Below are positions 995 through 34,781 of a stretch of DNA of 45,068 nucleotides, piece after piece. Position 1 is the stretch's first letter. Each line of letters begins with the position of its first letter. Both the position numbers and the translations under genes were made by a program. A model generated the notes under the pieces. The model was not told the origin of the DNA. It saw nothing but the letters and a program-made list of their open reading frames with translations, and did no database searches. Location: contig CANGXP010000010.1 of the NCBI GenBank assembly GCA_947457935.1, forward strand, positions 1 to 45,068, given 5' to 3'. The stretch is from Alphaproteobacteria bacterium. Lineage in GTDB: Bacteria > Pseudomonadota > Alphaproteobacteria > JAJTHO01 > CANGXP01.

Positions 995-1081
995 TCCTCA
1001 TTTGCCCTCCTCCCTAGCCCTTCTCCCTCAGGGAGAAGGGAACTCCCCTCTCCTATGGGAGAGGGGCTGGGGGTGAGGGTG
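995..1081. repeat. REP-like double-hairpin repeat
   Basis: Two perfect hairpins stand side by side. Positions 1018-1040 have 10-bp arms (cccttctccc/gggagaaggg) and a 3-nt loop; 1045-1066 have 9-bp arms (cccctctcc/ggagagggg) and a 4-nt loop. Outer C-rich and G-rich flanks (about 1003-1017 and 1065-1080) also pair. The composition resembles the intergenic REP/BIME repeats of many proteobacteria. It runs into the 3' end of the DUF559 gene, and a related inverted copy lies at 1456-1484. Confidence 0.75.
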
Positions 1082-1433
1082 TCTTTGTACAAAGAATCGT
1101 TGCCACGCGCACTATCTCCCCCAACACCACTTCAATATTTTGCATCACGTCCGTATTCCAAAACCGCACAACCGTATATCCCCGCGCTTGCAGATAAGCC
1201 GTCCGTTTTTCATCATACCGCCGTGTCGCACCTTCATTATGGCCGCCACCATCCAACTCCACAATCAGCAAAATTTTTTCAGCACAAAAATCAGCAATAT
1301 ACGGCGGCACAGGATGCTGGCGACGAAACTTAAGCCCTTGCAGACGATGGCCGCGCAGATAATAGCACAGCCGCCGCTCGGCATCAGTCATCTGTTTGCG
1401 CAAGGCGCGAGCGTATTCGATGGCTTTGTCCAT
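1053..1433 (-). CDS. DUF559 domain protein, endonuclease-like
   Basis: This is a 126-residue protein of the DUF559 family (PF04480), related to Vsr-type very-short-patch-repair nucleases with a PD-(D/E)XK-like fold. Family landmarks are the N-terminal ARALRKQMTDAERRLCYYLR, then GLKFRRQHPVPPYIADF, and the putative catalytic core LIVELDGGGH. The start at 1433 (MDKAIEYARALRK) is chosen because the residues before it translate from the flanking repeat. The last residues, TKTPSPPAPLP, are likewise read from the REP-like repeat, so both ends of the open frame run into inverted copies of one repeat. No cognate methylase is present. DNA cleavage is inferred from family only. Confidence 0.8.
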   Translation of the reverse strand: MDKAIEYARALRKQMTDAERRLCYYLRGHRLQGLKFRRQHPVPPYIADFCAEKILLIVELDGGGHNEGATRRYDEKRTAYLQARGYTVVRFWNTDVMQNIEVVLGEIVRVATILCTKTPSPPAPLP

Positions 1434-1455
1434 AGGGTATTCCTCAACTATTATT

Positions 1456-1484
1456 CCCCTCACCCTCCCCCACAAGAGAGGGGA
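1456..1484. repeat. Inverted partial copy of the REP-like repeat
   Basis: Its reverse complement begins tcccctctc and ends ggagggtgagggg, matching the segment at 1043-1080 with a short internal deletion. Together the two copies flank the DUF559 gene in opposite orientation. Confidence 0.6.
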
Positions 1485-1880: not shown

Positions 1881-1924
1881 ACCCTCTTCCCTAATGCCTA
1901 AACCCTCGTGCCTAGACCCCATTT

Positions 1925-26534: not shown

Positions 26535-26601
26535 ATAGGCACGAGGCGAAAGGGAATAGCAACCACGTGTTACCCTCTCGCGCCTCGTGCCTCGTGCCTA
26601 T
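26535..26601. repeat. Solo inverted repeat of the CTCGTGCC family between hflC and mnmA
   Basis: The left arm ataggcacgaggcg (26535-26548) pairs with cgcctcgtgcct (26581-26592) and also, shifted, with ctcgtgcctat (26591-26601), since the right side holds two tandem CTCGTGCCT units. The 32-nt centre has no gene. The same 12-mer brackets the four-helix-bundle gene at 33.1-33.5 kb. The repeat covers the mnmA stop and encodes its last residues, RHEARGARG. It might also act as a hairpin terminator, though no T-run follows. Confidence 0.75.
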
Positions 26602-27673
26602 CTCTCCCTATCCACCCCCCCCCCAGCACCCGTGTTTCGTCATACATCACACAGGCTTGCCCCGGAGAGATCCCTTGTTGCGGCTCGTCAAGAATAACGC
26701 GGGCGGTGTTGTTGTCGCCCGCAAACACGGTAGCAGGGACGGGCGGTTTTGTGGAGCGCACTTTGACAGAAACACGCAGCCCTGTATCATCAAGCGGTGT
26801 ATCGCCTAACCAGTTAGTTGAGTGAACGCTCACGCAATTTTGCCCCAAGGCTTCCACGCCGCCTACAACCACCTCGCGGGTTTCAGGTTTGAGGGCAATA
26901 ACATACAGCGGTTCAGGGCTGCTGATACCTAACCCTTTGCGCTGCCCCACTGTATAATGAATGATACCTTCGTGTGTGCCGAGGATACGCCCATCCAGAT
27001 GCACAATATTACCCGCCACAATCGCCTCGGGGCGGAGTTTTTGCACCAGATCCGAATAATGCCCCGTGGGCACAAAGCAAATGTCTTGGCTATCGGGTTT
27101 CTCTGCAACGCTCAAGCCAAATTGGGCGGCGAGCGCGCGGGTTTGCTCTTTGCTATTTCCGCCTAAGGGAAAGCGCAAGAAATCAAGCTGTTCTTGGGTG
27201 GTGGTGAACAGGAAATAGCTTTGATCTTTTGCCGCATCGGCTCCTTGATGAAGTTCGGCTTTGCCGTTATTTTCCAGCCGTTGCACATAGTGCCCTGTGG
27301 CGAGGAAATCGCCGCCTAAGTCTTTGGCTGTTTGCAACAAATCGCGAAATTTCACTGTTTGGTTGCAGCGAATGCAGGGCACGGGCGTTTCCCCCCTTAA
27401 GTAACTTTCCGCAAAATCATCAATCACGGATTGCTTGAAACGACTTTCATAATCCAGCACATAATGGGGAAAACCGATGCGTTCCGCTACATTCTTGGCA
27501 TCTTGAATATCTTGTCCCGCGCAACAGGCTTTGGCTTTTTGAATGGCTGCCCCGTGATCATAGAGTTGCAGCGTGATGCCCACCACGTCATAGCCTTGGG
27601 TGTGCAGCAGGGCGGCGACAACGGAACTGTCAACGCCGCCAGACATGGCTACGATAGCACGTTGTTTTGTCAT
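26570..27673 (-). CDS. mnmA: tRNA-specific 2-thiouridylase MnmA
   Basis: MnmA installs the 2-thio group on wobble U34 of Glu, Gln and Lys tRNAs, using sulfur relayed from IscS. The P-loop-like SGGVDSS lies near the N-terminus, with catalytic cysteines expected in [11 protein letters not shown] and [21 protein letters not shown]-like, GQRKGLGI and [10 protein letters not shown] segments also match. The start at 27673 gives an ATGA overlap with tenA; the track's longer frame starts at 27688. The natural C-terminus after VLGGGWI is extended by RHEARGARG read from the adjacent repeat. A C10 tract at 26615-26624 encodes the Gly run just before it, so slippage would change only the tail. Confidence 0.95.
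26819..26836. repeat. Dispersed 18-bp palindrome, copy 6 (in mnmA)
   Basis: The plus strand reads TGAGTGAACGCTCACGCA. In mnmA it is read as Val-Ser-Val-His-Ser, a third reading frame relative to the earlier copies. Confidence 0.75.
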
Positions 27674-28320
27674 AAGCTCTGCTGCCAAAATGCCGCTTCC
27701 AGTTGGGTTGCTGTGCTAAAAACAGTGTGTAGTTTCGCGAGGCGTTGTGGTATGCCTGCCCGCAAAAATAACGAATTCAAATAGTCTTTTGTGGTTGTTG
27801 CTACGTTCAAATATTCCTGCCCGCTATAGGTGAGAATCCACGGTTGATAGGGGTTATCAGCAGGAGAGAGCGGCAAAAGGCGCGTTGCAATTTCTGCATA
27901 GCCGAGCATACAGGGCGAGAGCGCAACCATAAGGTCAAGCACATCGCCCGTCATCGCTACATCCAGCACATAGCGCGTATAGGCAATGGTTGCGTGTGCC
28001 TCCACAGTGTTTTCAAGAGTGGCGGCATCAATGCCCCATTCCTTCGAATAGGCAACATGCAGTGCCATTTCTGTATTCAAAATAGCATCAATCATACTTT
28101 GAAAAAACCGCATGTCTTCCAGCGTTTCTGCCTTATACACGCCCAAAGCAAAAGCGCGAATGAACTGCTTTAAAAACAGATAATCCTGTATCAAATAGCG
28201 CTGAAAGGCAGGCTTTGGCAGCGTGCCCGCACCTAATTGTTCCACAAAGGGATGGCGCGTATACGTATCCCATGCCTGTTGGTTTGCGTCACGAAGCTGG
28301 GTGAAAATATCTTGCGGCAT
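27670..28320 (-). CDS. tenA: TenA family aminopyrimidine aminohydrolase / thiaminase II
   Basis: TenA hydrolyses aminopyrimidine breakdown products of thiamine to HMP for salvage. The all-helical 216-residue protein matches Ten[30 protein letters not shown], and the active-site Cys in [13 protein letters not shown]. Length is normal. It sits 2 nt after iscX and overlaps mnmA by 4 nt, placing a thiamine salvage gene inside a sulfur/Fe-S operon. The link may reflect the need for thiazole sulfur from the same desulfurases, but that is inference. Confidence 0.92.
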
Positions 28321-32443: not shown

Positions 32444-32697
32444 ACATCTGCCTCTTCTTTCAGTTTTTGCAAAAATTGCCGTACTTGATACGTTTTTGCC
32501 ATACTCTTTTCTGGCTGCACAGGGAGTCCGTATCCTTTAGGGGATTGCCAAATACGGTGACTTCCTGTTTGCCGCCGTAAACGCCAATCACATGCAATTA
32601 ACAGCGCCTCAAACTCAGCAAATTTAAGACTCTGCGGACTACGCTGTGCCTTTTCCAGCAACTTCTCCGCTTTGCTCACCTTTCTACTCCGCCGCAA
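32440..32697 (-). CDS. hicA: HicA-type mRNA interferase toxin
   Basis: HicA toxins are small double-stranded-RNA-binding-fold ribonucleases. The 85-residue protein shows KFAEFEALLIACDWRLRRQTGSHRIWQ, with catalytic His in GSHRIW, and a short C-terminal KTYQVRQFLQKL. It is longer at the N-terminus than minimal HicA (about 60 residues), with a basic leader MRRSRKVSKAEKLLEKAQRS seen in some subfamilies. Its start overlaps the 3' end of iscU by 14 nt. Confidence 0.88.
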   Translation of the reverse strand: MRRSRKVSKAEKLLEKAQRSPQSLKFAEFEALLIACDWRLRRQTGSHRIWQSPKGYGLPVQPEKSMAKTYQVRQFLQKLKEEADV

Positions 32698-33094
32698 CTA
32701 GGGGTTTTTGTGCTAGCCCCTGCTTTTGTTTATAGTCTTCAATGGCGGCTTTAACCGCATCTTCTGCCAAAATAGAGCAGTGAATTTTAACGGGCGGCAA
32801 CGCCAATGTTTGCGCGATTTCAGTATTCTTAAGCGTGCCCGCTTCTTCCAGCGTTTTGCCTTTAAGCCACTCTGTTGCCAAAGAGCTTGAGGCAATCGCC
32901 GAGCCACAGCCAAACGTTTTGAATTTGGCTTCTTCAATCACGCCGTTGTCATTAACGCGGATTTGCAGTTTCATCACGTCTCCGCAGGCGGGCGCGCCCA
33001 CAAGCCCTGTTCCAACGTCTGCGTCTGCCTTATCCAACGCCCCCACGTTGCGGGGATTTTCATAATGATCGATGAGTTGATTGCTGTATGCCAT
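32684..33094 (-). CDS. iscU: Iron-sulfur cluster scaffold protein IscU
   Basis: IscU is the scaffold on which [2Fe-2S] clusters are built. The 136-residue protein has ligands C37 (GAPACGDVM), C63 (FGCGSAIA) and C106 (KIHCSIL), and the HscA-recognition motif LPPVK at residues 99-103. The Shine-Dalgarno TAAGGAG (33100-33106) lies 5 nt before ATG and overlaps the stop codon of the upstream four-helix-bundle gene, so the original ribosome-binding site survives at the edge of that insertion. Confidence 0.97.
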   Translation of the reverse strand: MAYSNQLIDHYENPRNVGALDKADADVGTGLVGAPACGDVMKLQIRVNDNGVIEEAKFKTFGCGSAIASSSLATEWLKGKTLEEAGTLKNTEIAQTLALPPVKIHCSILAEDAVKAAIEDYKQKQGLAQKPLVAAE

Positions 33095-33103
33095 AAATGC
33101 TCC

Positions 33104-33544
33104 TTAGGCTCGAGGGGTGAGGCGCGAGGCACGAGGAAGTGCATCGCGTTGTGTCGTGAGAGAGTTTCTTAATCCAAAAAGCACTTTTTGTGCTTCATCC
33201 AATGTTTGTTTTAAAGGAAGAAAGGGGGCTGTGTAGTTGAGGTCTTCTGCTAAAATGAGTAGCGTTTCAACTTCTGCAAGAGAACCTACAGCGATATTAA
33301 TAAAATTAACGTAGTCTGCGATACCCCGCCGAGAATATCCCTCTGCAATATTGGCAGGAACAGAAACAGCCGCACGCCGTAATTGGCTTGTCAGTCCATA
33401 TAATTCTTCTTTAGGAAAGGATGCTGTCAAAAGATAAACTTCCTTAACAAGTGCTCTTCCTAATTGCCATGCACGCAAATCATGGAAACGACGAATAGCC
33501 GCTTCCTTCTCCTCGTGCCTCGTGCCTGCTGCCTCGTGCCCCAT
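33104..33544 (-). CDS. Four-helix-bundle protein (S23/IVP family)
   Basis: The 146-residue protein belongs to the four-helix-bundle family first seen in intervening sequences of 23S rRNA (S23/IVP, TIGR02436; related to the Avd accessory protein of diversity-generating retroelements). Landmarks are FHDLRAWQLGRALVKEVYLLT, FPKEELYGLTSQLRRAAVSVP, NIAEGYSRRG and the C-terminal EVETLLILAEDL. Its biological function is not established. It sits between iscS and iscU. Both ends (GHEAAGTRHEE and PRASRLTPRA) are read from CTCGTGCC-type inverted repeats, which suggests it came in as a repeat-bounded cassette. No reverse transcriptase or variable repeat is present. Confidence 0.88.
   Translation of the reverse strand: MGHEAAGTRHEEKEAAIRRFHDLRAWQLGRALVKEVYLLTASFPKEELYGLTSQLRRAAVSVPANIAEGYSRRGIADYVNFINIAVGSLAEVETLLILAEDLNYTAPFLPLKQTLDEAQKVLFGLRNSLTTQRDALPRASRLTPRA
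33107..33136. repeat. Left inverted repeat of the four-helix-bundle cassette
   Basis: Positions 33125-33136 (cgaggcacgagg) are the exact inverse of 33511-33522. The neighbouring ggctcgaggggtgaggcg is a degenerate second unit. Confidence 0.75.
33508..33542. repeat. Right inverted repeat of the four-helix-bundle cassette
   Basis: It holds three CTCGTGCC units (33512, 33519 partly fused, 33533), with cctcgtgcctcg at 33511-33522 pairing with 33125-33136. It ends at the start codon region directly after the iscS stop. Confidence 0.75.
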
Positions 33545-33545
33545 C

Positions 33546-34781
33546 TTAATGCGCCGCCCACTGTATTGTCTTCAAGTCAATACCTTCTTCTTTCACCATC
33601 TCCCATAACGGGCTCATGGCGCGGAGGCGTTCCACTTGGGTAGCAATCGCGTTTGCCGCGTAATCTACTTCCTGTTCTGTGGTGAAGCGTCCGAAACCAA
33701 GTCTTAGGCTGGTATGCGCGAGTTCTTCTTCCACACCAAGAGCGCGCAGCACATAAGACGGCTCAAGTGAGGCAGACGTACAAGCCGAGCCAGAAGACAC
33801 CGCCAGTTCCTTAATGCCCATCATCAGGCTTTCGCCTTCTACGAAGGCAAAGCTGATGTTGAGATTCCCTGGAATACGCATCACCACATCGCCATTGATA
33901 TAAATATCAGATAGGCGTTTGTTAACGATACTAAGGAATCTATCGCGCAAGCCTTCAAGGCGGGTTGTCTCGGGCGCCATTTCTGCTTTAGCAATACGGC
34001 ACGCTTCGCCTAAGCCTACGCACAGTGGCGTTGGTAGTGTGCCAGAACGCATACCGCGTTCTTGCCCGCCACCATGAATGAGCGCTTGCAAGCGAACGCG
34101 TGGCTTGCGCCGCACATAAAGCGCCCCAATGCCTTTGGGACCATAAATTTTGTGCCCTGAGATGCTTAGTAAATCAATATTCATCGCTTCCACATCAAGG
34201 GCGATTTTGCCGACCGCTTGCGCACAATCGGTATGAAAAAATACGCCCCGTTCGCGGCAGATTGCGCCAATTTCTTTGAGTGGTTGAATAACGCCAATCT
34301 CATTGTTTACCGCCATGATGGACACGAGAACGGTTTGCTCGGTTATCGCGGATTTGAGTTGTTCAAGGTCAATCAACCCGTTTTCATGGACGGGCAAATA
34401 CGTCACCTCAAACCCTTCTTCTTGCAGGTGACGGCAGGAATCCAGCACACACTTATGCTCGGTTACGCAGGTGATAATATGGTTTTTCTTACCTTTGTAG
34501 AATTGCGCAACACCTTTAATGGCAAGATTGTTAGACTCGGTTGCGCCACTCGTGAATACAATTTCCTTGGGGTTTGCGCCGATGATGCTCGCGATATGTT
34601 CCCGCGCTATTTCCACCGCCTCTTCCGCTTCCCAACCATATTGGTGATTGCGCGAATGGGGGTTGCCGAAATGCTCGGTAAACCACGGCAGCATTGCCTC
34701 CACCACGCGAGGGTCACAGGGCGTTGTCGCCTGATAATCAAGGTAAATAGGGCGTTTGTGGAGGGGAGAGACGTTCGTCAT
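33546..34781 (-). CDS. iscS: Cysteine desulfurase IscS
   Basis: IscS removes sulfur from cysteine as an enzyme persulfide and feeds IscU and tRNA thiolation. The 411-residue PLP enzyme shows [36 protein letters not shown] Lys in [12 protein letters not shown], and the mobile active-site Cys in [17 protein letters not shown], typical of group I IscS. The C-terminus LKTIQWAAH matches the IscU-contacting tail of IscS. Its ATG directly abuts the stop of the upstream paralogue (TAA-ATG). Confidence 0.97.

Follow-up and report, generated by a model that had tools for sequence, protein, structure and literature searches.

In the window analysed here, a stretch of 45,068 nucleotides from an alphaproteobacterial contig, a gene of the S23/IVP family lies between iscS and iscU and is enclosed by inverted arrays of a 7-bp unit. 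The anatomy of these arms and their generality among S23 genes are close to certain, and the repeats very probably form a family that has been mobile or amplified. The data suggest an overlooked family of mobile elements, and we consider the chances somewhat better than even that S23 genes are the gene-bearing form of widespread small mobile elements ended by inverted 7-bp-unit arrays. A first-pass annotation of the window had described the repeat-bounded gene; the 7-bp tandem unit, its variation from genome to genome and the generality of the association for S23 genes go beyond it.

The cassette and its neighbours are organized as follows:

33104-33544, minus strand, S23/IVP gene (four helix bundle, PF05635/TIGR02436), between iscS and iscU
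33546-34781, minus strand, iscS, upstream neighbour of the S23 gene, same direction
32684-33094, minus strand, iscU, downstream neighbour of the S23 gene
33511-33540, arm upstream of the S23 gene, array CCTCGTG-CCTCGTG-CCTGCTG-CCTCGTG-CC, purine-rich in the gene's sense
33107-33136, arm downstream of the S23 gene, heptamer array in inverted orientation and degenerate in part, GGCTCGAGGGGTGAGGCGCGAGGCACGAGG

Profile searches with the open reading frame at 33104-33544 matched both PF05635 (5e-34, 117.1 bits against a curated cut-off of 33.8) and TIGR02436 (2.5e-33, 114.5 bits against a curated cut-off of 24), and solved relatives of the protein are 2gsc (XCC0516) and 2rld. A single nucleotide separates the iscS stop codon from the S23 start codon. 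The arm unit is TCGTGCC, or GGCACGA when read from the opposite strand. At 33125-33136 lies the exact 12-mer CGAGGCACGAGG and at 33511-33522 its reverse complement, which confirms the inverted repeats first reported around this gene. Their proposed translation at both ends of the protein also held, the N-terminal residues MGHEAAGTRHEE and the C-terminal residues LPRASRLTPRA being arm-encoded. Over the whole window, 13 inverted exact 12-mer pairs were found within 600 bp, five of which belong to the S23 cassette and to a gene-less element between hflC and mnmA. Allowing up to two mismatches, CTCGTGCCTCG was counted 19 times where 8.2 would be expected, and no shuffle reached this number. An Rfam search of the window gave no credible match. 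Elsewhere in the window, a DUF559/PF04480 open reading frame (1053-1475, minus strand) overlaps the stretch 953-1475, in which SPSPSGRRELPSPMGEGLGVRV-like motifs are repeated in the translation; they may represent another family of small palindromic repeats in the host genome.

To evaluate the association across the family, S23 loci were gathered from protein or profile matches alone, blind to repeats, 80 of them from genome contigs and the others from whole genomes. The period test was applied to the 108 loci with both 150-bp flanks, with a run threshold score of at least 12. Among upstream flanks, 35 had a period-7 run and 33 a period-14 run; for downstream flanks, the numbers were 55 and 44. 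Each of the other periods appeared in at most three flanks. Period 7 was found in no shuffled flanks and at four of the stretches taken 1 kb away. At 54 of the 108 loci, one flank shared a 12-mer with the reverse complement of the other, whereas mismatched loci gave an expectation of 0.9 and the direct orientation yielded 7. Both arrays could be measured at 45 loci, and here the arm units were identical at all seven letters in 23 cases (null 0.3) and alike at six of seven in 13 (null 1.9). Upstream arms are generally purine-rich (47/55) and downstream arms pyrimidine-rich (59/69), with a median length of 4.3 units and a weak consensus on the downstream strand of about [AC]CNNYT[CG] (3.69 bits versus 2.66-2.97 for shuffled units). 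Counting either sign, 105 of the 113 S23 loci have arms, and they span at least 15 phyla, archaeal Methanophagales MAGs included. The two archaeal loci (L045 and L105) lie on Methanophagales contigs, for which a binning error is possible; one has a period-7 arm and one shares inverted 9-mers.

Heptamer similarity tracks S23 protein identity only above about 50-60%. A cognate code readable from the S23 sequence was rejected, the link between heptamer and protein vanishing below about 55% identity. Of 249 genomes sampled from the window's phylum, 44 carry S23. Matches were found in 31 plasmid records, mostly cyanobacterial, and in none of 50,697 phage records. Some S23 genes are split or have an internal stop codon (G123:C1:3420183, G183:C1:2864244, G237:C1:308550 and G104:C1:98169), so decaying copies are common.

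The heptamer of the window is also found away from the gene, at the following positions:

26535-26601, solo element, an inverted heptamer array with no gene, located between hflC and mnmA and folding as a long hairpin (-44.3 kcal/mol, z -7.5)
26570-26605, minus strand, 3' end of mnmA, with the last codons and the stop codon from the solo element
1905-1913, plus strand, lone heptamer CTCGTGCCT, no partner arm

The solo element carries ATAGGCACGAGG at 26535-26546 and its complement at 26590-26601. The C-terminal residues of MnmA (26570-27688), past the last profile-matched residue (360), are arm-encoded, as anticipated by the first-pass annotation, in which this inverted 12-mer was said to change the end of MnmA. 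The lone unit that it listed at 1905-1913 is present and reads CTCGTGCCTAG; it was left out of the element count because it has no partner arm and forms no element. A search of the 1.83-Mb host genome for the doubled heptamer CTCGTGCCTCGTGCC with at most one mismatch gave 43 occurrences, against none for the reversed control, and inspection of the matches in place yielded 17 solo elements besides the S23 cassette, these solo counts resting on pattern searches and on the sequence stretches examined. The repeat is present at many other places in the genome. A second S23 gene of the host, located between genes resembling ilvB and ilvN, also has inverted arms, made of a different unit around CCCGCCT/CTCGCCT. 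On these two counts, the first-pass annotation withstood the refutation test that it had set for itself. In the host solos, the G-rich arm always comes first, followed by a core of about 20-70 bp and then by the C-rich arm, and the 12 solos folded as RNA gave z-scores of -4.8 to -13.

The solo cores of the host show no sequence similarity to the S23 cassette, and among themselves a single pair exceeded the shuffle 95% value (26 versus 25). In the two Xanthomonadaceae, degenerate arm sequence along the core edges accounts for at least part of the excess similarity among solo cores. The arrays, and not a body, thus look to be what is propagated. The hflC-mnmA element had been interpreted as a MITE-like empty derivative, and this interpretation was not supported, because MITEs share a body with their parent and the solo cores do not. 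A classical MITE system, with solos as internally deleted S23 cassettes moved by a transposase, would account for the inverted ends and the short gene-less copies; given that the cores are unlike the cassette and almost unlike each other, that the cassette has no transposase and that no terminal repeat is constant, the unit changing between genomes, such a system is very improbable. The uniqueness of the cores also weighs against our own reading as mobile elements, being odd for simple copy-and-paste.

At least 7 of the 17 host solos are located in frame deep within long open reading frames, including ileS (twice), carB, kdsB, uvrA and glyQ. When CarB was aligned to 1bxr, the match extended to residue 836, was interrupted by about 31 extra residues and resumed at 835. 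Structure alignment of IleS to 8c9e placed its inserts at query residues 472-514 and 632-686, opposite residues 415-419 and 540-546, and alignment of KdsB to a solved structure revealed one insert; those of UvrA and GlyQ are known from open frames only. A further solo-bearing gene lies on C40. Part of the in-frame bias is survivorship, because essential genes interrupted out of frame would escape notice. Palindromic elements in frame in unrelated protein genes are known from Rickettsia (RPE; PMC10969869), which compared by architecture differ from the window's family in that the latter has heptamer-array arms and an associated S23 cassette. These positions deep within coding sequences, together with a presence that varies between close species, leave very little probability to regulatory hairpins or terminators fixed by selection and unrelated to mobility, even though hairpins do occur near gene ends and starts and passages of two papers propose a regulatory role for heptamer repeats (PMC4679880, PMC2700814).

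We then compared the units between genomes by searching three doubled units in 25 genomes, nearly all chosen for carrying S23. The host's own doubled unit occurred 21 times, in the host genome alone. Doubled CCTACTG was found 42, 61, 23 and 20 times in four genomes of one genus with CCTACTG-bearing S23 cassettes between acd and mmsB, four times in one other genome, once in each of two and not in the others. Doubled GGGGACC was found 10 times in Xanthomonas codiaei and 71 times in Pseudoxanthomonas wuyuanensis, both of which have an S23 gene with GGGGACC, and once in one genome outside these two Xanthomonadaceae. All three heptamers are thus amplified essentially only in genomes with an S23 gene that bears them. 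The same architecture, with the G-rich arm first, was present in 18 of the 19 solo regions examined in these other genomes, the remaining one (L254) being single-armed. One region (L251, G300:C6:121400-122700) has a 193-bp core between GGGGACC arms, longer than in other solos, which includes CAGCAGCAACCGCAG-like repeats and further degenerate heptamers.

Heptamer repeats have been described in Xanthomonas (GGGAATC) and Nostoc (GGGGA(C/T)T) (PMC4692102), in Beggiatoaceae (TAACTGA) and others (PMC4679880), and in Geobacter metallireducens, where GGGACCG forms 49 elements in and between genes (PMC2700814). As far as the passages of these papers go, they resemble the solos in their period of 7, genome-specific unit and dozens to hundreds of copies, and the Xanthomonas heptamer also in its inverted pairs (70-75); they differ in being described as unexplained or regulatory, with S23 unmentioned in the passages searched. 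Upstream of the Coxiella S23 ORF, heptameric GACAGAT repeats have been noted in a passage of PMC4990558. Direct identity of the collected S23 arms with published heptamers was rejected, comparison giving single partial matches only (L084, GGGGACT; L068, GACAGAT). No passage that we searched ties heptamer repeats to S23 as a class; most subscription papers lie outside this coverage, and an earlier report is possible. We predict that the published heptamer families are solo forms of the S23 system.

The state of insertion junctions was then compared among relatives. In the window, the iscS-iscU gap is 454 bp. It measured 18-105 bp in 11 of 12 relatives and 455 bp in the twelfth (G001, L201), without an S23 match. 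Two genomes of the same order (G002 and G003) carry three and five copies of CCACTCA between iscS and iscU and no S23 gene there, and none was found elsewhere in these drafts. The acd-mmsB junction was compared in 30 genomes from the genus of G222, whose species are about 93-98% identical in Acd. It is filled by an S23 gene with CAGTAGG-type arms in 12 genomes (gap 428-573) and empty in 16 (26-31 bp). One genome (L187) has a 147-bp gap consisting of an inverted GTAGTGA array without a gene, and another (L197 in G314) an unrelated 87-bp spacer without a heptamer array. This last spacer holds a short inverted repeat, ATGCATGTCG...CGACATGCAT, and represents a small insertion of another kind at acd-mmsB. 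On the acd-mmsB tree, which takes in L129 as a thirteenth filled row, at least ten changes between filled and not filled are required. The main split of the S23 tree agrees with that of the flanking genes, so this junction cannot separate gain from loss; the data fit old presence followed by repeated loss or allele replacement equally with repeated gain. At nuoC-nuoD, seven S23 loci have units differing by up to four letters, both arms of each locus changing together. These differing heptamers at the same junctions suggest that the heptamer code is replaceable as a set, in both arms together.

The mobile nature first attributed to the cassette is thus favoured by its inverted ends, its gene-less relatives and the presence or absence of the same kind of cassette at one junction in close species. 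Against it stand the arrays of G002 and G003, where no S23 was found, and the facts that no movement was observed and that the element ends are not fixed to the base. Comparison by eye of filled and empty acd-mmsB junctions, with ends not fixed to the base, found no target-site duplication.

Persistence of arrays in relatives where S23 was not found would also be expected if arrays were spread by an unrelated host process, such as slippage with template switching or another enzyme, and S23 were cargo. The lack of a known catalytic domain in S23 and the unique solo cores, so that arrays alone seem propagated, point the same way, as do published heptamer families described without S23 in passages of PMC4692102, PMC4679880 and PMC2700814. 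Arrays around 105 of 113 S23 genes in many phyla are nevertheless too regular for random cargo, and each genome multiplies the unit of its resident S23 cassette. Moreover, the known hairpin and retro engines that were looked for are not needed: RVT_1 (reverse transcriptase) was absent from the host genome and six others with solos, and no Y1 transposase was found in the host (G000) or in G108, G222, G123 and G104, so that both are lacking in the host and four solo-rich genomes. We therefore regard S23 as mere cargo as quite unlikely. On the same counts, a reverse transcriptase was rejected as a necessary engine (no RVT_1 in seven solo-bearing genomes), and so was a Y1/RAYT transposase (absent in five); the two Xanthomonadaceae do have a Y1 transposase.

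A known setting of S23/IVP genes is the intervening sequence (IVS) of 23S rRNA, as in Coxiella and Leptospira, in which the gene also lies between complementary ends. The window's cassette shares such stem-forming ends (inverted exact 12-mer and arrays); it differs in lying outside a 23S rRNA gene, between iscS and iscU, in having heptad arrays as both arms and in having its unit dispersed as solos, features described in none of the sources consulted. According to a passage of PMC4990558, how IVSs arose and how they move has yet to be clarified. The arms could be RNA-processing stems, with cassettes and solos mainly intervening sequences retained as RNase III substrates and spread rarely by homologous recombination, and with S23 acting on RNA and not in mobility. 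Several observations agree with this explanation: a relative's S23 copy (L040) sits within 23S rRNA (Rfam RF02541), in vitro cleavage of the Coxiella IVS stem by RNase III is described in a passage of PMC4990558, solos fold strongly, S23 is co-directional with both neighbours at 63 of 98 loci, and the junction states are compatible with allele recombination. However, a processing stem requires neither a 7-nt period, nor a genome-specific unit, nor spread to dozens of sites, and excision without religation would destroy essential mRNAs such as that of ileS, where the frames stay open. Processing stems are on balance an unlikely explanation.

Our best reading is a system that would resemble REPIN/RAYT and be based on an Avd-like pentamer without a known catalytic domain. 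In REPIN/RAYT too, inverted repeat-pair hairpins are dispersed and the same repeat lies beside a gene believed to work in trans (PMC3116915); the present family differs by the lack of a Y1 transposase in the host, by tandem 7-mers in place of palindromic REPs, by unique cores and by the many copies inside genes. The Xanthomonas S23 protein is a homopentamer, as reported in a passage of PMC4990558, and its structure 2GSC and that of the Avd protein of diversity-generating retroelements (DGR), 4DWL, are homologous four-helix bundles (PMC10053308), although the reverse transcriptase of DGRs was not found in the seven genomes searched. A pentameric Avd-like S23 might bind the tandem 7-nt units, each subunit perhaps holding one, and tag the arrays to be copied or inserted in trans, the role supposed for RAYT with REPINs. 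A ring protein with repeated sites would, we infer, fix the spacing while leaving the unit free to vary. We know of no catalytic domain in S23, so strand transfer would be supplied by host enzymes or a partner. Inserts in transcribed units could be tolerated through excision of the RNA hairpin by RNase III, as in rRNA IVSs, or through in-frame readthrough. Whether S23 acts in trans on the arrays is an even call, and any particular chemistry of movement is put forward with low confidence.

S23/IVP is a widespread family of "hypothetical" proteins, and unexplained heptamers are known from separate reports on Xanthomonas, Nostoc, Beggiatoaceae, Geobacter and Coxiella. Their link to S23 gives one testable system, with the prediction that the heptamer of each genome is that of its own S23 cassette, and would account for the inserts seen in frame within essential enzymes. 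Through this link, an Avd homologue also comes to stand beside a repeat-reading problem without a reverse transcriptase. More tentatively, S23/IVP may be the specificity factor of an unrecognised class of mobile elements, in which a non-catalytic ring would read a 7-nt tandem code and most unexplained bacterial heptamer families would be its hairpin offspring.
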